From: a virus
IMG/VR virus record: IMGVR_UViG_3300025978_000012
Location: 1-64,000 of that record
Length of the DNA: 64,000 bases
Direction: 5' to 3' (one strand)
Shown: one piece after another, positions 3,308 through 60,071 of the stretch
How the letters are laid out: every line of letters begins with the position of its first letter
Position numbering within the stretch: the stretch's first letter is position 1
Translations under genes and position numbers: made by a program
The notes under the pieces: generated by a model
Database searches by the model: none
Seen by the model: the letters and a program-made list of their open reading frames with translations, nothing else
Told to the model about the DNA's origin: nothing

Positions 3308-5085
3308 TATATGACAACCTCTCTATTTTCTTCTCCAATAAAATAAATTGTTGATTGAGTTGTAATGGTTTCTCCATCAATTTTTATTTTTTTCAAATCC
3401 ATTTTTGCACTTTCTACTCTTGGGTCTTCTTGCATCTGAGAAATCAGGTCTGTTAAATATCTGTCTATTTTTACCAAAAATGGGGCATTGCTTTCATCGA
3501 TTGCAACGGTTCCCCAATTTGGGTTAAATACATTAAGACTTCCTTTCCTATTTGTCATTCTTTTTAAAACGCTATTATATGCATTTTCTATCCCATCGGT
3601 TACGCGTAAATCTCCTTTAGGAGATATGAGTAATCTATCGTTTATGTCTGTTGCAATATCGCTTCCGTATAAAAATTTCTGTATATCATTTTGATTCGAT
3701 TCATAAACAAGATTTTCATCACTACGACTTACTGCGCTTATATCGATGGGAATTTTTATTTTTTGACCGATAAGCGTTCCGTCGATAAAATCATTTTCTG
3801 ATATTTGATTTATCTTTAGAATGCTTACAAATTTATTTGCATCCTTTAGTTCATGAAGCGCGACAGTCCGTGCGGTGTCACCGTCGGTTACTTCATAAAA
3901 ATAGAAAGTAGTATTGTTTTCTACAATATTTTCATCGGCGGAATCAAATTGTTCAGTAGTTAGCGTATAATCATCGGCATTCGCATAGTAACGAATTTCA
4001 TCTTGTTTTACTATTGAATTTATAACGCCTTGCAGTGAATCAGCATATATTTTTAATTTTTGGATTAAATTATAAAATGAAAAAAGTTCAAGACTTACAA
4101 CTTCATCAATTGTCAATGTTCCAGCAAAATATAATATTTGATTCGCGTCCGATAAAAATGTTGAAATGAAATCAATCAATAAATTAGCGGTATTCGTTGC
4201 CAATGCAGCAGTATAAATCGGAATTTCAGTCAATACAGTAGATTGTCCGGCCTGTATTTTTTCGTTTTCAGTATTTATATTATTTATCGTATTTTGTATG
4301 TCAACTGTAGCTGAAACAAAATCTGTATTATATGAAATGGCAATTTGTATCGCCGCAAATTTATCGTTAAAATTAAGATTTTGAATTTGTGAATTTATAG
4401 TATTAACGCTATCGTTTGAGCTTTGTTTTATCTGAATTACTGGAATTATTTTTTGCATTGTGTCTGGTTCATAACATTCAAGTTCAATTGAATATTCAAC
4501 AGCTATATATTTCGAATCAGTTTGATTTCCTGAAAAATTAGATATTTTGCAAAAAAAATGATCGTCCATATCATAATCATGAAAAATCAATTTTATTTCG
4601 TCATACAATCCACCTAATTTTCGAACCATATTTCGGGCAATTTTTCTATATAATACTATTATTTCAGGACTTTCAGACATCGGAATAATGGGAATATTCA
4701 TTTTCGAATTTCGTGACATTGTATAATCACGATACCTTATCAGCATCCATCTAAGCTTGAAGAATTCCGTCATTCCGTCAATAGTCCCCTCTAATCCAAC
4801 ATTATTTGGGGCGACTGGATTATACGGACTTCCGATATATGGAAAATATAAATCTCCGGTTAATGTTATTTTTTTTGTTGAATTCCCACCATCAGTAAGA
4901 TAATTTCCTCCGAGCGTAGGCATGACAGTGGAACGAGTTCCTTCGGAAATATTCTTTGTTTTCGGCGGTATCATGAAAAAAATTTCGGTAATTGTATTTC
5001 GATTTTTGTCTACGAATTCAAATGAATACAAACCGTATAGCGTGAAAACACCATATATGTGTTGACTCAAGATAGGAAGATTCAC
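3307..5085 (-). CDS. Baseplate protein: N-terminal phage domain + LysM + gp25/W-like domain
   Basis: A 592-residue fusion. Residues 1-210 form a conserved-looking beta-rich domain that starts with a hydrophobic segment. Residues 215-380 are helical. Residues 395-447 form a LysM-type module (FYFYEVTDGDTARTVALHEL to GTLIGQKIKIPI). Residues 465-592 resemble the gp25/gpW baseplate wedge family (TDGIENAYNSVLKRM, then an RKGSL step). LysM-bearing baseplate proteins (gp53-like) and gp25 are usually separate genes, so this appears to be a natural fusion placing two wedge parts in fixed ratio. A promoter-like site lies just upstream. Domain limits are approximate. Confidence 0.75.
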   Translation of the reverse strand: MNLPILSQHIYGVFTLYGLYSFEFVDKNRNTITEIFFMIPPKTKNISEGTRSTVMPTLGGNYLTDGGNSTKKITLTGDLYFPYIGSPYNPVAPNNVGLEGTIDGMTEFFKLRWMLIRYRDYTMSRNSKMNIPIIPMSESPEIIVLYRKIARNMVRKLGGLYDEIKLIFHDYDMDDHFFCKISNFSGNQTDSKYIAVEYSIELECYEPDTMQKIIPVIQIKQSSNDSVNTINSQIQNLNFNDKFAAIQIAISYNTDFVSATVDIQNTINNINTENEKIQAGQSTVLTEIPIYTAALATNTANLLIDFISTFLSDANQILYFAGTLTIDEVVSLELFSFYNLIQKLKIYADSLQGVINSIVKQDEIRYYANADDYTLTTEQFDSADENIVENNTTFYFYEVTDGDTARTVALHELKDANKFVSILKINQISENDFIDGTLIGQKIKIPIDISAVSRSDENLVYESNQNDIQKFLYGSDIATDINDRLLISPKGDLRVTDGIENAYNSVLKRMTNRKGSLNVFNPNWGTVAIDESNAPFLVKIDRYLTDLISQMQEDPRVESAKMDLKKIKIDGETITTQSTIYFIGEENREVVI

Positions 5086-5130
5086 GATTTATCCTCGCTT
5101 TATCTGCCTATTTAATGGCGTTTAGTAAAA

Positions 5131-5157
5131 ATTATATGATATTAAAAAATTTGTCAA
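5131..5157 (-). promoter_or_regulatory. Putative promoter for distal baseplate operon
   Basis: Minus-strand TTGACA (5157-5152) and TATAAT (5136-5131) are separated by 15 bases, shorter than the 17 seen elsewhere in this genome. The site lies in the 79-base gap before the baseplate fusion gene. Confidence 0.45.
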
Positions 5158-5164
5158 CGTATAT

Positions 5165-5539
5165 TTATTGCGCTTTTACTTTAGTTTGACCGGCACTGGT
5201 TATTTCAACATTAACGGGAAATGAACATGCTAAAGAAGTTGAACTGTCGGTCCCATTTATTACAATACCATTTTTTTTATCATTAACACGCAAAACTTCA
5301 CCATTCTCGCATTTCACTTTTATTGCGGTTGGCATTATTGAATCAGAAACGGGCGAACCCTGAATACATGTTCCATTAGAGCATCCAATTATTTGTATAT
5401 TTAATTGTTGTTTATATATACCATTGCCGCCAGCTTTGCATTTTGTACTTGGAGAACTGGTTATTGTAGCTGTTCCGGGTGCTGAACATCCGGTAATTGT
5501 TAAAGTGCATCCTTGAACTGCAATCTCTTTTGCGGGCAT
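5165..5539 (-). CDS. Small cysteine-rich protein, candidate spike-tip (PAAR-like)
   Basis: A 124-residue protein with seven cysteines, many Gly/Ser/Thr residues and alternating beta-type sequence. It starts at the stop of the spike gene (TAATG-type junction), where contractile tails often encode the metal-binding PAAR tip that caps the gpV trimer. No canonical PAAR triplets were recognised, so the tip role comes from synteny and from the Cys-rich beta character. An alternative is a small baseplate accessory protein. Confidence 0.45.
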   Translation of the reverse strand: MPAKEIAVQGCTLTITGCSAPGTATITSSPSTKCKAGGNGIYKQQLNIQIIGCSNGTCIQGSPVSDSIMPTAIKVKCENGEVLRVNDKKNGIVINGTDSSTSLACSFPVNVEITSAGQTKVKAQ

Positions 5540-6309
5540 TATACGTCTACCGTCAAGTTTCCGCTATTAACATTTAATTGACCCGTTGTTGTTATTTTGA
5601 CATCGGCCTGACTTGTTATTTCTGTATTATCCGTTGAATTGATAATTACTTTTGCGCTTCCATCAAATTTTATTTCATCTGTTGCAGTAATAGTAAATTT
5701 TGCCTGACTTTTGAGCTCAAAATCGGATATTGTTTCAATTGTCCCTTTTTGTTGTGCAGTTATTTTTAAATCAGTATCAATATCAATTTCGAAATCAGCA
5801 ATTGTATATAAATAAAATGTACCCGGTGTTTTTGTCGATGGACTTTTTCCAGTACTAAAAACTAAATATGATCCTGATTGATGCCCTAAAATAATATCTT
5901 CAGGATGAAATTCAAGATTTTGAAGAGGTGTCATATATTTTGACTCATGTGATGTATTTCCTACACCTTGATACGGAAAACGCTGCACAACAAACGGATT
6001 ATTCATATTACCATTTTCAAATGCGACTGCTACCATTTGATTTGCTATCGGACCTTCATACAATCCATGCAAATTACCACTTACCGGATCAATGAACGCT
6101 CCGGGATATGCGACATTTGTTACTTCGCCTCCTCTCGAAAATTTAATATTTACTAAAGTTTGTTGATGCAACGGTTCGGGTAATGTTGATTTTATTTCTC
6201 CCATTACAATTTGAAAACATTCATGATTAAGATCACGAAAAATATTTTCATATTGATTTCTAACATGAGTATCTTTTCCAAGATTTCGGGTTATTCTTCC
6301 TTGTCTCAT
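5539..6309 (-). CDS. Baseplate spike protein (gpV/gp45-like)
   Basis: A 256-residue protein. Residues about 45-115 look like the OB-fold of P2 gpV/Mu gp45 spikes (LVNIKFSRGGEVTNVAYPG, then an NQMVAVAFENG strand pair). The C-terminal ~90 residues are repeated short beta strands (FEIDIDTDLKITAQ, FELKSQAKFTITA, VKITTTGQLNV) typical of a trimeric beta-helix needle. It lies between the hub and the putative tip, the conserved order for membrane-piercing spikes. There is no lysozyme insert. Confidence 0.78.
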   Translation of the reverse strand: MRQGRITRNLGKDTHVRNQYENIFRDLNHECFQIVMGEIKSTLPEPLHQQTLVNIKFSRGGEVTNVAYPGAFIDPVSGNLHGLYEGPIANQMVAVAFENGNMNNPFVVQRFPYQGVGNTSHESKYMTPLQNLEFHPEDIILGHQSGSYLVFSTGKSPSTKTPGTFYLYTIADFEIDIDTDLKITAQQKGTIETISDFELKSQAKFTITATDEIKFDGSAKVIINSTDNTEITSQADVKITTTGQLNVNSGNLTVDV

Positions 6310-46983: not shown

Positions 46984-47465
46984 TTTGTTATTAGCTCCTT
47001 TTTTATTTATATAACAAACTACTAAAACTATATAATGTGTCAAGTAAATTATTATTATTGGAAAATAATAGTCTAATTATATAATTAGAATTTAAAAATT
47101 ATATTTTTTTTTGACGTAGAATACATTTTATAATTTTAAATTTTAGAAAAATACAAAATAAGAATTTATAAATTATAATCCGCATTGAATGATTTTATAA
47201 TTTTGATTTTCTATCTTTATAATAAGTATTCAATTATAAAGAATTATAAATTTTAATAATTAATAATAAGATAAAATTATATATGATTAAGTATATAAAA
47301 GTATACATTATTATTATTATTATATATATTATTAATATATATATATCTTATTACTAATATAATTAAAAATTATAATGTTCTGGTCAACAAAAAGTCTAAA
47401 CGCCTTTTTGTTGACCTAAAACACATAATTTTTAGATGGGGTAGTTTTAAGTAGTTTCTTTTCTT

Positions 47466-48855: not shown

Positions 48856-50128
48856 TTGTTTTTTTTTCTATTTGTTCAAGAATATTTTTCCATTCTCGTA
48901 ATTTTACGTCATCAGGATATAGTTCTGAATATTGGATAATGCTCCCTTTGCTTTTTGAGAACCATTGCCGGTTTGATTTAAATAATTTTATTATTTCTTT
49001 TTTATTATTTTGTTCAAAAATAAATGCATATTTTCCAAGTGATTGTTTGAATAGAACCGATCCCATTGAGGTATTATGCCATAATTTTTTATTTTTATTA
49101 ATATTTAAAATATTTTTAAATTCTTGTTCCCATTGAGTAGTTACAATTTTTGTATTATACAATTCGTCGGCCCTGTTTTTTGCATTAATTGACATGAAAT
49201 TAAGTATATCGGGATTATTGTAAAGATATTCTATTTCACAATGATATTTTTCTTTCGATGTTATAATTCCATTAAAAAAATTTGTTACAATAAAATATTC
49301 TGACGAATTATTTAAGACAACCGGGACAACTCCCGCCGCCATTGCCTCGCCAAGCACTTGTTCACAAGTTCCATAATGTTTTTCGTACAATGGATATCCG
49401 AATACATCCATTTGGGAAAACCAAGGAGATAAATCATTAACCCTATCAGTAAAAATAAATTTTTCCCATAGTCCTTTGTTTTTTACCTGTTGCTTCACAG
49501 TATTTAAATCAGGACCGGAGCTACAAAAAATAAATTTTACATTTGGTATGTTTATTTTTGAGCACATTTCAACATAATCAGGATGCAATTTACTATTAAA
49601 GTCTATCGTTCCGGCATATCCTATATTAAATGTATCATGCGGTTCTTTTTTTAAATTATAGAATTTTAAAATATTAGCAACGGACCATATAACTCCGAAT
49701 TTATTTTTTTGTTTAATTGAAAGTTCTTGATATTCTTTCGCCTGATGTGAAACAATAGAAGTGAATATAAACCTATCACTCATTTCAACTAATTTTTCGG
49801 TTATGACATAGGGTGGATATAGATTATTTGCGTGTGCCCATACGATCAATCGGCATGGCGGAATTGATTGCATCACCAGAAATTCATATAATAGCGGATT
49901 GTTATACCAGTGCAATACTACAATATCGTTTTTTTCAATAAGTTCTTTTAATTTTTCAGGATCATTTCGAAGATCGTGAATTGAGTGAGGGATGACAACA
50001 CTACGCGAATCCTCGATATTCAGACACGCGATAGTATGCTCTATGCCGGTTGTATTTTTAACCAGATTTTCTATGACGGTCCCTACTCCGCCCCCGGTGT
50101 GAGTTGTTATATGCAATACTTTTATCAT
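48848..50128 (-). CDS. GT4-like glycosyltransferase (GT-B fold)
   Basis: A 426-residue protein. N-terminal HITTHTGGGVGTVI is the donor-loop start of GT-B enzymes. The C-terminal domain shows NIGYAGTIDFNSKLHPDY, VKFIFCSSGP and HYGTCEQVLGEAMAAGVVPVV, the E(x7)E-type motif of GT4. It overlaps the radical SAM gene by four bases (ATGA). A retaining NDP-sugar transferase, consistent with the nearby rfbA making dTDP-glucose. Confidence 0.82.
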   Translation of the reverse strand: MIKVLHITTHTGGGVGTVIENLVKNTTGIEHTIACLNIEDSRSVVIPHSIHDLRNDPEKLKELIEKNDIVVLHWYNNPLLYEFLVMQSIPPCRLIVWAHANNLYPPYVITEKLVEMSDRFIFTSIVSHQAKEYQELSIKQKNKFGVIWSVANILKFYNLKKEPHDTFNIGYAGTIDFNSKLHPDYVEMCSKINIPNVKFIFCSSGPDLNTVKQQVKNKGLWEKFIFTDRVNDLSPWFSQMDVFGYPLYEKHYGTCEQVLGEAMAAGVVPVVLNNSSEYFIVTNFFNGIITSKEKYHCEIEYLYNNPDILNFMSINAKNRADELYNTKIVTTQWEQEFKNILNINKNKKLWHNTSMGSVLFKQSLGKYAFIFEQNNKKEIIKLFKSNRQWFSKSKGSIIQYSELYPDDVKLREWKNILEQIEKKTNE

Positions 50129-52599
50129 ATTTTTATTCCAAAATATTCAAATCGTTCAATCCATTTTGGATTTTCAGATATGCACTTTTTAACCATTTCC
50201 ATGTTGTTTAAAAAATACCATGCGAAAGCTTCAGTTGGATATTTCCGCGCCACATATTCAAAATATTTTTTAGCTGTTTCTGTATCTCCAATACTCGCTC
50301 TGTAATTTTCAACAAAATTCGTGCGCCAGTTCATATATTTAATTTGTTCATTTATATATTCGGCGGAATATTCGGGAGTATTTATAACCGCTTCAGTTAT
50401 TTCGAAAGTACCGACATTTACATTTTTGATATATTTTTTTTGAATACATTCTTGCCGTAACCTACTTCCGTATACTGGGGCGGCTATTTTTGGTGAAATT
50501 ATATCAGGTTTGACTTCCCTTATAAAATCGACAGTTTCTTGCCGGTGTACGTCTGTTTCACCCGGTATTCCAATAACTAAAAATATATGCAGAAAAAAAT
50601 TATATTTGCGTATTATTTTAATAACATTTCGTGCCTGGTCCAAATTTACCGGTTTGTGCATCATTTTAAGAACTTCGGCGCTTCCAGATTCCAATGCAAG
50701 CACCAGGCAATCTACTCCGGCATTCCACATCAGATCAATCAATTCCTCGTCCATATAGGCGATACTGAGGCCGTTAGGCATTTCTATTCTAAGACCATAT
50801 GGTTGTAGTCGTCTGAATAAATTTTTTGCGCGTTCCCTATTGTATAATATTTGTTCGTCGTAAAAGGTAAGAACATTCATTCTATATTTTTCAATAAGTT
50901 TTTCGACATGATTAATAATAGAATTAACTGAAGCATAACGAATTGATTTATCTGGATTAAGGGAGTTCTTACAGAATATACAATTATGAACTAAAACATT
51001 ATTTGCAAAGAACCAATTATATTTTGGGACTTCCATGCAATATGTATCTTGTTTTTCAACCAACCATTCTACTTTAATAACTTTATGATTTATTTCATTT
51101 TTTAAATTTTTTCTTTTAATTCCTAAATATTTTCTATATTCATCTACAGATTTATTATATTTTATTTTAAAATGTTTCCAAAAAAATGAATAACTAATAT
51201 TGAAATTTTTTATATATTTTCTTAGATTTTTACAATAAATAATATTATTAAATTCTTTTTCTAAACTAAAGGGAAGTTCTTTATAATTTGGATTCAATTT
51301 TCCTAGTTTGCTATTTCTATATTTTAGTTTTTGTGCCTTTGTTCTTTTTTTACCTTTTTGTTTTTTACCTAAATTAACAAAAAAATCTTTTGGCATATTA
51401 AATGCGGGATTATTAGTTTTCATTCTTTCTGAAATTTCAGGATGTAATTTCATGTGAATAGCAGAAGATTCACAAAGAAATAAATTATCAGGATGATTAT
51501 TTGTTTTATCATGATCGATATGGTGTATTTTGTCAGATTTTTTTAATTTTTTATTATATTTATATTCAGCAACAACCCTATGTATTTTTTTAGAATATCT
51601 TTTCCACTCAATATCAACATACCCAAGTCGATTTTTTCGTATTTTTACGGCTCTCACACTTTGTTTTTCTTTTAAATATTGAGCTTCTATTTCAATTTCT
51701 TTATGCGGCTTTCCAAATTGATTATTATTTTTAAAAGTTAAAAATTTATGATCGGGAGTACAATCAATATATGTTCTATCATCAAAATAAACTCTAACTA
51801 ATTGAGCTTTTTCTCTAGTTTTTTTTATATTAATTGCATCTGTGAATAATATTTGTTTAGAATTTTTATTATATGTTAAAACTGGGATTGTCTCATATTT
51901 TTCTGAAATTTCTTTAATTGAGATATTTCCATATATTGTATTGATTAATGTTTCCCCAGATAAACAATTGTAAGGACATCCCCGAGTTGTTATAACATAA
52001 AATTGCTTTTTACCTTCTTTTCCAAACATGAAAGGTGAGTATGTTTCTTCTATCTTTTCATGATATTTATCAACATCTATCAAGGAATAATCAATATCGA
52101 TAATATCGTCTAATTTCGATAATACATTTTTTATTGGAGGATCAATTGATCCTTTTGTTGCCCATCCTTTTTTAAATTTTCCAGTAGTCAAGTACTCCTT
52201 TACTGCTATTTCGCCTTCATCTGGACATATTGCATCTATTTCAGGATTTTCATTTAAAATTTCTTTGTAAGTTTGAAGCGTAGATATACCGCCCATTATA
52301 ATAGTCGAATAAGGACTATGTGTTTTTATTATTTTCAGGATAGGCGATAGATATTTGTATGATGTATCAAACATCATACTAATTCCTATAATATCAGGGT
52401 TTGACGATTTTATTTTTTCGGGAATATAGGAAAAATAATCTTCGTTTAAATTACAATCGAATATTTCAACGTTTGCCAGATGTTCAATGTATTTAGAAAT
52501 AGAAAGTACTCCATTGGGCATCGCGAGGAAACTTCGCTGCATAAGTTTTGATTCTTTAAAAACATAAGGTAATATTATAAATAGAATTTTTTTCTTCAT
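50125..52599 (-). CDS. B12-binding radical SAM enzyme interrupted by an in-frame intein
   Basis: An 824-residue precursor. Residues 1-150 form a B12-binding-type Rossmann domain (PDIIGISMMFDTSYKYL, TIIMGGIST, CPDEGEIAVKEYL). The radical SAM domain begins at RGCPYN (Cys208) and resumes after the intein with CIFCKNS, so splicing of residues 212-539 rebuilds CPYNCIFC (CxxxCxxC). MVIGIPGET and VLALESGSAEVLKMMHK support the family. Unspliced protein cannot bind the 4Fe-4S cluster, so activity depends on splicing. Mature length is 496 residues with a helical tail (TAKKYFEYVARKYPTEAF). Neighbouring methyltransferases and glycosyltransferases suggest a sugar-modifying role. Confidence 0.88.
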   Translation of the reverse strand: MKKKILFIILPYVFKESKLMQRSFLAMPNGVLSISKYIEHLANVEIFDCNLNEDYFSYIPEKIKSSNPDIIGISMMFDTSYKYLSPILKIIKTHSPYSTIIMGGISTLQTYKEILNENPEIDAICPDEGEIAVKEYLTTGKFKKGWATKGSIDPPIKNVLSKLDDIIDIDYSLIDVDKYHEKIEETYSPFMFGKEGKKQFYVITTRGCPYNCLSGETLINTIYGNISIKEISEKYETIPVLTYNKNSKQILFTDAINIKKTREKAQLVRVYFDDRTYIDCTPDHKFLTFKNNNQFGKPHKEIEIEAQYLKEKQSVRAVKIRKNRLGYVDIEWKRYSKKIHRVVAEYKYNKKLKKSDKIHHIDHDKTNNHPDNLFLCESSAIHMKLHPEISERMKTNNPAFNMPKDFFVNLGKKQKGKKRTKAQKLKYRNSKLGKLNPNYKELPFSLEKEFNNIIYCKNLRKYIKNFNISYSFFWKHFKIKYNKSVDEYRKYLGIKRKNLKNEINHKVIKVEWLVEKQDTYCMEVPKYNWFFANNVLVHNCIFCKNSLNPDKSIRYASVNSIINHVEKLIEKYRMNVLTFYDEQILYNRERAKNLFRRLQPYGLRIEMPNGLSIAYMDEELIDLMWNAGVDCLVLALESGSAEVLKMMHKPVNLDQARNVIKIIRKYNFFLHIFLVIGIPGETDVHRQETVDFIREVKPDIISPKIAAPVYGSRLRQECIQKKYIKNVNVGTFEITEAVINTPEYSAEYINEQIKYMNWRTNFVENYRASIGDTETAKKYFEYVARKYPTEAFAWYFLNNMEMVKKCISENPKWIERFEYFGIKI
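50983..51966 (-). other. Intein with HNH homing endonuclease (328 codons)
   Basis: Precursor residues 212-539. Block A CLSGETLI at the start; block B with CTPDHKFL; an HNH domain (KIHHIDHDKTNNHPDNLFL); a NUMOD3-like basic stretch (KKQKGKKRTKAQK, LGKLNPNYK). Block F is YCMEVPKYNWFFANNVLV, and block G ends in HN, with Cys as the +1 residue. All splicing residues (Cys1, block B His, penultimate His, terminal Asn, Cys+1) are present, so it should splice. The +1 Cys is the second Cys of the cluster motif. Confidence 0.93.
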
Positions 52600-53783
52600 A
52601 ACTCTATTATTTCACCGCGAAAATTGAGTTTCTTTAATTCTTGTTTTAATTTTTCGGTATGTGCTGTTGCCGTTATCAATACGGGAAGCGTCGCATTTTC
52701 AAGAAATTCTCGGCCATTCATTTTTTTATTATTAAATGTCATTTTCTGTTGTTTATGTGGCGTATCGTCGATCAGTCCGGCAATAAAGCATTTATTTAAT
52801 CCGGCATTATTATAGAGGTACAAGAATTCCCGCCCGATACCCCAGACGTACAGAGGGTCTTTTAATTTTGATATTATTTTTCTTTTTTCACGAAGTTTTT
52901 CCCGGCTATTTTTTATGTAAAATATTGTTCTACTTTTTAGATTAAAATTTTCAAATTCAACATTTATTTTATTTCCCGTATATTGGAAAATCATTGACAC
53001 ATTCGGCAATATTGTTTTATTGCTTGTCATTGGATTTGTTGAATTTGTTGCCATTCGTAGTGCGAATCCATATTTTCCGGCGATCATAGAAAGATGTTGA
53101 ATGTCGAAATGTTGAACATGCTCTCTCAATAAAAACCAATAAAAATCAAAAAAATTATATTTGTCGTAAAAATCAGCATTGGGAACACTAATACAGAAGA
53201 ATCCATCTTTCTTTATGACCTTTTTTGCCTCCATGAATATTTTTTGAGGATCGAATAAATGTTCAACAACTTGATCGGCGATTAAAAAATCAAAAAATTC
53301 TAATGGGTAAGGAATTGATTCGGCAGTTCCCTTTTTAATATTCAAATATTCTTTTTTTTTGGCTTCTTGAATATATATGTCAGATAGGTCAATTCCATAA
53401 AGATTTTCATAACCATTTGTATGAAGATAATGCAAAAATCCGCCGCTGGCACAACCGATATCAAGGATTTTATCGGTAGGTTTTGCATATGTTTTCATAA
53501 ATCCATATAAAAAAGAATAGCGGATCAAGGAGTTCCTGCCACTGCTGCCGGGCGTATCGCCATTTTTATTTGGTGTATGTAAATTAATCGGAGAATATTC
53601 ATTGTTGTAATATTTAAAAATATTTCTTTCATCTTTGAAAGAAACATTATTGAAGATATGTCCGCATTCGCTACAGCATAAAATTATTGCCGGATCATAA
53701 AGAAATGATTTATCCATGTTTCCGCACGTTAGTGATAATAATTCTCCTTGTTTAGTTGAATTACAAATTGGACATTGTTTCAT
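52596..53783 (-). CDS. C-methyltransferase-like protein with N-terminal zinc site
   Basis: About 395 residues from ATG 53783 (MKQCPICN). Cys pairs CPIC and CSEC near residues 3-43 form the zinc-binding start of sugar C-methyltransferases. A SAM-binding Rossmann domain shows KILDIGCASGGFLHYL and GIDLSD, then VVEHLFDP. The C-terminal domain (YVWGIGREFLYLYNNAG, FIAGLIDDTP) matches the second lobe of the NDP-sugar C-methyltransferase family. Overlaps the radical SAM genes on both sides (4 and about 23 bases). Confidence 0.82.
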   Translation of the reverse strand: MKQCPICNSTKQGELLSLTCGNMDKSFLYDPAIILCCSECGHIFNNVSFKDERNIFKYYNNEYSPINLHTPNKNGDTPGSSGRNSLIRYSFLYGFMKTYAKPTDKILDIGCASGGFLHYLHTNGYENLYGIDLSDIYIQEAKKKEYLNIKKGTAESIPYPLEFFDFLIADQVVEHLFDPQKIFMEAKKVIKKDGFFCISVPNADFYDKYNFFDFYWFLLREHVQHFDIQHLSMIAGKYGFALRMATNSTNPMTSNKTILPNVSMIFQYTGNKINVEFENFNLKSRTIFYIKNSREKLREKRKIISKLKDPLYVWGIGREFLYLYNNAGLNKCFIAGLIDDTPHKQQKMTFNNKKMNGREFLENATLPVLITATAHTEKLKQELKKLNFRGEIIEL

Positions 53784-54753
53784 TTTCATACCTTTTTAAT
53801 AATTCTTCGGCATCATCATCCAGGTTTTCCGGTTGACCGGCAATAAGCTGATTGCATGATGCACATATCGGAATAGTATGTCGTAATTTTTGAAGCATTA
53901 ATAATCGCATTGTTTGTAATCGTTGTCCATTCCAAATATTTTTTATGCTTTCAGTTAATATGTTTCCTATTATTATTTTTTGATTCCAATCAAGAAAACA
54001 TGCTGATACCATTCCATTATAATTTATTGAAAGATTATAAAAAATATATGGGCAAACCTGAACTTCTTTCAATGGTTGTCCGTATACGCCTACATTTTTA
54101 TTTGGCATAAGTTCCATTTTAAAGTCATACCAACACGACATTACATTTTCTATTGCGATACCATCAGAAATAGGAGAAAAAATTTCAAGAAAAGTATTTT
54201 TATCTTCTTCTGAAATAATATCTCCATTTATTTTAATGAAAATGGTGCATTGTTTTTTATTTTCGTATAAATGTTTTATGTTTTCAACATATTTTTTAAA
54301 ATCAATATCGTAATTACTAAAGTCTTTATATTGGTGCGCATTAACCCCTTCAACAGAAATATTTATGCGGTCTATCCCAGCATCAATTATATCAAGATTT
54401 AATTTCGGATTTAATTTGCTTCCATTGGTTGTTGTATCGATTGTTTCGGAAACATCATTATTTTTGGCGTATCGAATCATATCGGAAAAATGCGGATTCA
54501 AAAGGGGTTCTCCGAATGCATATAGACGAAGTGTTTTTAATTTTTTATCAAATTGTTTTATGTCATAAATAATATCTTTATAAATGTGCCACGGCATAAT
54601 GCCTTTTTTTATTATTTTTTCATTATTTGAATGAAAACAAAATTTACATTGAAAATTGCAAACCGACGAAGGGTCCACGTTAATTACAAAGGGTGTTGAC
54701 AATGGTAATTGTGGAATAAGCGATATGCGGCCTTTTTCTATAATTCGTTTCAT
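53761..54753 (-). CDS. Radical SAM/SPASM enzyme
   Basis: A 330-residue protein. The cluster motif CNFQCKFC is near residue 33 (intact, no intein). LYAFGEPLLNP and RINISVEGV follow in the core. A C-terminal SPASM-like region has VCPYIFYNLSINYNGMVSACF and PICASC. It could modify a sugar or small peptide. Starts at ATG 54753, overlapping the upstream gene by four bases. Confidence 0.83.
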   Translation of the reverse strand: MKRIIEKGRISLIPQLPLSTPFVINVDPSSVCNFQCKFCFHSNNEKIIKKGIMPWHIYKDIIYDIKQFDKKLKTLRLYAFGEPLLNPHFSDMIRYAKNNDVSETIDTTTNGSKLNPKLNLDIIDAGIDRINISVEGVNAHQYKDFSNYDIDFKKYVENIKHLYENKKQCTIFIKINGDIISEEDKNTFLEIFSPISDGIAIENVMSCWYDFKMELMPNKNVGVYGQPLKEVQVCPYIFYNLSINYNGMVSACFLDWNQKIIIGNILTESIKNIWNGQRLQTMRLLMLQKLRHTIPICASCNQLIAGQPENLDDDAEELLKRYENETMSNL

Positions 54754-59126: not shown

Positions 59127-60071
59127 ATGAAATATACACCACCTACTTTTAAGAGCATGAACGAAATGTCATATATTGATGTGGCGCGTTTAACTGAAGA
59201 CCAGGCACGAGCAATACTTGAAAAGATACGGTGGCCGAAAGGAATTATATGCCCACATTGCGGCGGTACTAATATAGTAAGGATACAAGGAAAAGCAAAA
59301 AGAGTGCGGGACGGATTATTAAGGTGTAAAGATGACAGAAAACAATTCACGGTAACGACTGGAACTATAATGCATGGTTCACATATAACATTACGTCAAT
59401 GGGTTCAAGCCTTCCATGCAATGTGCGCGTCAAAAAAGGGCGTGTCCGCTTTACAAATAAAAAGAAATTTAGGACTTGGTTCTTATAAATCCGCATGGCA
59501 CTTAAACCATAGAATACGGTTTGCAATGCAAGACGTAAATCCTGAACTATTGCAAGGCATAGTCGAAGTTGATGAAACGTATGTTGGTGGCAAGCCGAGA
59601 AAAGGAACCGGCATAAAGAACAAAAAAGGTCGCGGAACTAAAAAGACTCCGGTACTTGCACTAATAGAAAGAAATGGAAATGTTATATCAAAGCCGGTGG
59701 GCGATGTAAGCGGAAAAACTTTAAAATTTGCAATCCGTGAAGTTGTTGACTTTAATTCTACAATAATGACAGATGAATGGAAAAGCTATCGCGGAATTGG
59801 TAAAGATTTTAAGGGCGGTCATGAAGTAGTTAATCATGGTAAAGGCGAATATGTCAGAGGAAATGCCAATACAAATACCGCTGAATCATATTTTGCTTTA
59901 TTAAAGCGCGGTGTTATTGGAACCTTTCATCATGTATCAAAACAGCATTTACTTCGTTACTGTGACGAGTTTTCATTTCGTTGGAACAATCGTAAAGTAA
60001 CTGACGGCATTAGAACGCAAAACGCGATTAAAGGTTTTGTAGGTAAAAGATTAGTTTATAAAAATATATGA
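59127..60071 (+). CDS. IS1595-family (ISXO2-like) transposase
   Basis: A 314-residue protein. The N-terminal zinc-ribbon-like part CPHCGG...RCKDDRKQFTVTTGTIM lacks the usual fourth Cys (Asp instead). A helix-turn-helix region follows (VSALQIKRNLGLGSYKSAWHL). The catalytic DDE-type core has VEVDETYVGG, IMTDEWKSYR and ANTNTAESYFALLKR with the Asn/Glu, and ends in SFRWNNRK. All acidic residues are present, so it is probably active. Confidence 0.93.
   Translation: MKYTPPTFKSMNEMSYIDVARLTEDQARAILEKIRWPKGIICPHCGGTNIVRIQGKAKRVRDGLLRCKDDRKQFTVTTGTIMHGSHITLRQWVQAFHAMCASKKGVSALQIKRNLGLGSYKSAWHLNHRIRFAMQDVNPELLQGIVEVDETYVGGKPRKGTGIKNKKGRGTKKTPVLALIERNGNVISKPVGDVSGKTLKFAIREVVDFNSTIMTDEWKSYRGIGKDFKGGHEVVNHGKGEYVRGNANTNTAESYFALLKRGVIGTFHHVSKQHLLRYCDEFSFRWNNRKVTDGIRTQNAIKGFVGKRLVYKNI

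Follow-up and report, generated by a model that had tools for sequence, protein, structure and literature searches.

A putative HNH homing intein in the cluster motif of a phage B12-binding radical SAM enzyme

The window, as the whole stretch of 64,000 nucleotides analyzed is called here, belongs to a tailed-phage contig of 76 kb, which carries tail genes, as judged from the list of open reading frames, and a terminase gene (Terminase_3 by Pfam). Glycosyltransferase, methyltransferase and radical SAM genes, all recognized by Pfam, are clustered at 47.6-57 kb, and among these lies a B12-binding radical SAM gene carrying an intein (Table 1). According to the list of frames and to translation, its 824 codons, intein included, make up one uninterrupted frame. 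Pfam finds in the precursor B12-binding, Intein_splicing, HNH_3 and Radical_SAM domains, every match being above cut-off, with the radical SAM core at residues 538-693 (E 7.4e-17). The assignment to B12-binding radical SAM enzymes rests on both domains, on the fold matches reported below, and on the CxxxCxxC motif that splicing would produce. The protein is no member of the PhpK/Sden_1168 P-methyltransferase family, as it scores 125 bits against an NCBIfam equivalog cut-off of 575. An IS1595/ISXO2-type transposase gene resides in the same contig (window positions 59127-60071, plus strand; Pfam), and AT-rich imperfect palindromes with arms of 41-48 nt are found in intergenic DNA beside the glycosyltransferase cluster (47305-47451). 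Rfam gave no match in the window, the palindromes included.

Table 1. Position of the precursor gene, its parts and an intein-free neighbour in the window
Feature	Coordinates	Strand	Basis
Gene of the 824-aa precursor, an intein-bearing B12-binding radical SAM protein	50125..52599	-	single open frame; Pfam/NCBIfam
N-extein, residues 1-211, C-terminal GCPYN, carries first cluster Cys	51967..52599	-	sequence
B12-binding domain, residues 28-135	52195..52518	-	Pfam PF02310, E 1e-11
First Cys of the CxxxCxxC motif (Cys208), at -4 relative to the intein	51976..51978	-	sequence; no variation in 18 aligned precursors
Class 1 intein with HNH domain, 328 aa, residues 212-539	50983..51966	-	Pfam PF14890, TIGR01445; boundaries aligned to relatives and intein-free alleles
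Intein Cys1 (Cys212), first splicing nucleophile, block A CLSGETL	51964..51966	-	sequence; intein alignment
Block B, IDCTPDHKF, Thr B:7 = T281, His B:10 = H284	51739..51780	-	intein alignment A2, T70 and H73 without variation
HNH_3 endonuclease domain, residues 338-376	51472..51588	-	Pfam PF13392, E 2.2e-7; 6/6 aligned relatives
NUMOD3-like tail, about residues 393-442	51274..51423	-	aligned with relatives, NUMOD3 by Pfam in two
Block F, DTYCMEVPKYNWFFA, F:4 position = Cys521	51004..51048	-	intein C310 invariant in alignment A2
Block G and following residue, NNVLVHN/C	50980..51003	-	junction sequence; alignments
Cys540, intein +1 nucleophile and second cluster Cys	50980..50982	-	sequence; invariant in aligned precursors
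Cys543, third cluster Cys	50971..50973	-	invariant in aligned precursors
C-extein (residues 540-824) carrying the radical SAM core, matched by Pfam as far as residue 693	50125..50982	-	Pfam; fold match AprD4, TsrM, OxsB
Neighbouring radical SAM/SPASM gene, uninterrupted CNFQCKFC, intein-free comparison in the same cluster	53761..54753	-	Pfam; sequence

The intein is inserted after residue 211, the junctions (marked here and below by slashes) reading TTRGCPYN/CLSGETLINT and NNVLVHN/CIFCKNSL, and its DNA has a lower GC content than that of the exteins (22% vs. 30-34%). The precursor matches the Pfam Intein_splicing profile with E 7.7e-14, and an intein-splicing profile has exactly one match across the whole viral record; the window holds a single occurrence of the junction DNA pattern, vs. 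0 expected from shuffles. Every residue that defines a class 1 intein is present (C212, T281, H284, H538-N539, C540), by sequence and by alignment A2, and the HNH domain lies between blocks B and F. In comparison with the class 1 inteins described in the literature (blocks A, B, F and G; PMC4031507), no catalytic residue is missing, but F:4 is occupied by Cys, and F:13 by Phe instead of the commonest His. The original prediction, according to which an intein with its splicing blocks and an HNH domain interrupts the CxxxCxxC motif of a radical SAM enzyme, is thus borne out by the exact junctions and the domain matches. The NUMOD3-like tail that it added holds in part: Pfam finds no NUMOD3 at E<0.1 in the window's own copy, yet the corresponding stretch aligns with that of close intein relatives, in two of six of which NUMOD3 is detected. 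An AlphaFold2 model of the precursor, obtained from 18 aligned precursors, has a mean pLDDT of 74, with values mostly of 76-94 across the N-terminal splicing half. By Foldseek the model matches the inteins NpuDnaB (TMt 0.83), SspDnaB and NrdJ-1, in line with a HINT fold, and the same chain matches the B12 radical SAM structures AprD4 (E 1e-9), TsrM and OxsB.

Splicing is predicted to start with an N-S shift at Cys212, followed by transfer to Cys540 and cyclisation of Asn539, and ligation of CPYN to CIFC would create the CxxxCxxC motif. Since splicing would restore CPYNCIFC, the +1 residue is the second cluster cysteine, as had been claimed, and this residue never varies in the aligned precursors. 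No enzyme activity is expected before splicing, and it is very likely that only the spliced protein binds the 4Fe-4S cluster. Imprecise loss of the intein would amount to loss of the enzyme.

Relatives were searched in 2.9 million viral contigs and 84,980 genomes with a degenerate DNA pattern, made up by the intein end followed by Cx[FY]C, and the matches were then translated. The scan revealed further B12 radical SAM genes hosting inteins of this family; matches in phage head-morphogenesis-like genes, in terminase-like genes and in chance short ORFs were discarded as not radical SAM. A second, unbiased search, carried out with intein-only peptides and blind to the host gene, returned as close relatives 24 viral loci, including the window's copy and some near-duplicates, all at the boundary CxxxX/C...N/CxFC. 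About 23 further viral contigs carry the intein family of the window, all at this exact boundary. The family resides at the same boundary also in a gammaproteobacterial MAG (L045), the sole locus of the sample not found in a metagenomic viral contig; no second carrier was detected among 369 genomes of the same class. More distant intein relatives, returned by the intein-only search, occupy other phage genes, mostly with Ser at +1. In annotated phage genomes tblastn found no relative spanning both exteins and the intein, but weak intein or radical SAM pieces only, and the same was true of plasmids. The DNA around the insertion has the consensus G.TG.CC.T.../TG....TT.TG, carries about 34 bits within +/-15 nt of the insertion, and shows its conservation over the motif codons. 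Many copies (L053-L069, L082, L086, L124) end with Lys-Asn, Ser-Asn, Ala-Asn or Arg-Asn, and not His-Asn, before Cys+1. The L111 copy (near 4998-5756) features Pro at the expected Cys1 (GCPYN/PLRGDT), the remainder being intact; it may be a dead copy or an error, or else a variant that, like class 3 inteins, relies on the Cys of block F.

The divergence of the inteins does not match that of their hosts. Median identity is about 45% among inteins and about 21% among host proteins (exteins), and intein similarity exceeds extein similarity in 235 of 253 pairs. The low extein identity could in part stem from the alignment of fast-evolving phage proteins; the comparison of sister pairs is independent of that. 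In the L082/L086 pair, dS is five times lower in the intein than in the adjacent C-extein (0.04 vs. 0.20), as expected if the intein had recently moved or been converted. In one host gene family, collected with N-extein peptides only, a tree of 60 genes shows 10 with an intein intermingled with 50 without one. This mosaic implies a minimum of 9 presence/absence changes, at least seven of which are required by strongly supported branches, and the grouping of the intein-bearing genes in one clade is rejected (p=2e-5). One more intein call in this family (L195) was a false regular-expression match. Occupied and empty sites can be directly compared in L051 and L173, whose DNA shows 89% identity to the left and to the right of a clean 843-bp insertion. 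The conserved site is thus polymorphic for the intein in relatives of the window's gene; the window's own gene is without an independent allele, since the only near-identical copy of the precursor locus, L050, is 100% identical over 10 kb and comes from the same phage. The endonuclease has been lost in the mini-inteins of L082 and L086 (140 aa) and of L124 (166 aa). L066 hosts in the same gene as L082 and L086 the full version of their intein. Full, mini and empty alleles, together with the pattern of divergence, are the marks of a putative homing element at different stages of its cycle.

We favour the view (probability about 0.88) that an HNH class 1 homing intein has settled between the first and the second cluster Cys of a phage B12-binding radical SAM enzyme, and spreads via motif codons conserved throughout the superfamily. 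The relatives sit at the same codon in many distant phage enzymes of the superfamily, so that the cluster motif itself appears to be the target. HNH-driven homing and recombination would carry the element into radical SAM genes that are only distantly related. It may persist and spread because the DNA that it targets corresponds to cluster-motif codons conserved superfamily-wide, which would put divergent radical SAM genes within reach of homing. Conservation of the motif DNA would also explain how one endonuclease finds targets in divergent genes. Inteins are usually regarded as tied to the conserved site of one gene. Here the target of the family is apparently the motif of a very large superfamily, and one element would hence move between genes encoding proteins about 20% identical.

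This phylogenetic pattern points first to a homing element rather than to redox gating, which for the window's protein is plausible by analogy. In a redox switch, oxidation would tie Cys1 to Cys(-4), to Cys+1 or to an intein Cys, splicing would wait for reducing conditions, and the oxygen-sensitive enzyme would be completed only when these prevail; that the intein is kept for such a function seems rather unlikely. A radical SAM precedent is the intein of P. abyssi MoaA, in which, as stated in two later papers, a Cys-3/Cys1 disulfide blocks splicing under oxidation (Callahan et al. 2011, cited in PMC10663303 and PMC3922620). Both inteins interrupt a radical SAM enzyme and have an N-extein Cys close to Cys1. 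This Cys is placed at -3 in MoaA, according to these papers, and at -4 in the window's precursor, which differs also in enzyme family and host and is not a redox-trapped intein of the Cys-3/Cys1 type. The -3 position would imply that the MoaA intein is inserted before a different Cys, either the third of CxxxCxxC or one of the C-terminal CxxC of MoaA. Cys208, Cys212, Cys280, Cys521 and Cys540 show little or no variation among 18 precursors, as a switch would have it, but the extein cysteines are conserved because they are cluster ligands, and their presence is therefore no evidence for a switch; Cys521 falls at F:4, where Cys is a common, known intein variant (PMC4031507). Similarly, mini-inteins persist despite the loss of HNH, but 50 of the 60 host-family genes on the tree lack the intein, and hence do not need the switch. 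Many natural precursors in which a Fe-S ligand is also a splicing nucleophile make the question of an intein redox switch directly testable, and one and the same gene can be compared with a mini-intein, with a full-length intein and without any.

It is very improbable that the intein no longer splices and that the gene is dead: the Pro1 relative tells that broken or altered copies exist, but the window's gene has an intact frame, intact extein motifs and a complete set of catalytic residues. Hardly credible is that the shared site is a sampling effect: the first relatives did come from the junction pattern, but searches with intein-internal and with N-extein peptides both gave the same site, the former returning also more distant inteins in other genes.

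The insertion site had been described as unfamiliar. This is correct as far as catalogues go, no intein at the second cluster Cys being found in NCBIfam, Pfam and open-access papers, and the open-access papers searched describing no intein in CxxxCxxC beyond the statements on MoaA; the site is, all the same, recurrent across several radical SAM families. The closest catalogued case inside CxxxCxxC is NCBIfam NF038136 (intein-containing Rv2578c radical SAM), which matches the window's precursor weakly across both junctions (20 bits vs. a cut-off of 700). In genome G005, an Rv2578c homologue that lacks the intein aligns with positions 38-76 and 335-546 of this model, which meet at the third Cys of GCEHGCVYC; the NF038136 intein therefore precedes the third Cys (GCEHGCVY/C), while that of the window precedes the second, and the window's protein falls outside NF038136. 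P. abyssi MoaA and NF038136 are thus precedents for the broader notion that radical SAM enzymes can host inteins and that their splicing may be under redox control. NF052663 (RtcB_rel_intein2) and the HNH inteins found in portal-like and RNR-like phage genes are related in sequence (about 25-41% identity), but reside in other host genes, whose identities are deduced from sequence, and mostly have Ser+1. Inteins and radical SAM genes occur together in C. coli phage IBB_35, but its inteins are reported in terminase, phoH and RNR.

Other inteins interrupt radical SAM cluster motifs. Those at the second Cys not detectably close to the window's family were found in a SPASM-type (L006), a CXXX-repeat-maturase-like (L018) and a QueE-like gene (L028, C-extein side only), as well as in the AmmeMemoRadiSam enzyme of archaea (L031, L035, L036; TIGR04337, 318 bits for L036). 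Inteins at the first Cys occur in two viral loci (L048, L049), while L180 has one at the third Cys and belongs to the host gene family in which second-Cys inteins are found. L031 and L035 carry a second intein at the third Cys. Further archaeal copies are interrupted at the second site only (L230-L232), at the third only (L233, L240, L241), or at both (L234, L237). The cluster motif may tentatively be viewed as a superfamily-wide intein hotspot, in which each of the three cysteines serves as +1 residue for several unrelated lineages and two inteins can share one motif, cluster assembly and hence enzyme activity depending on redox-sensitive splicing; this broader view is doubtful.

In L031, L035, L234 and L237 two inteins are hosted in one 8-residue CxxxCxxC, just three residues (Cys-Arg-Tyr) apart (CNWL/intein/CRY/intein/CQN), and genomes related to these archaea have one or the other intein alone. 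The third-Cys intein of L180 (IMGVR_UViG_3300050821_003623; CSF/CLREGTT...LVHN/CCINAPF) is of the HNH/NUMOD3 type and shares with the tail of the second-Cys family a short stretch of up to 62% identity (47 aa), while the splicing parts differ; endonuclease exchange between inteins at neighbouring sites is possible. In putative head-morphogenesis (Mu F-like) genes, inteins are located directly before CxxC (L004, L007, L009, L012, L016, L017, L026, L027, L030, L042), probably another metal-ligand-type motif used as insertion site.
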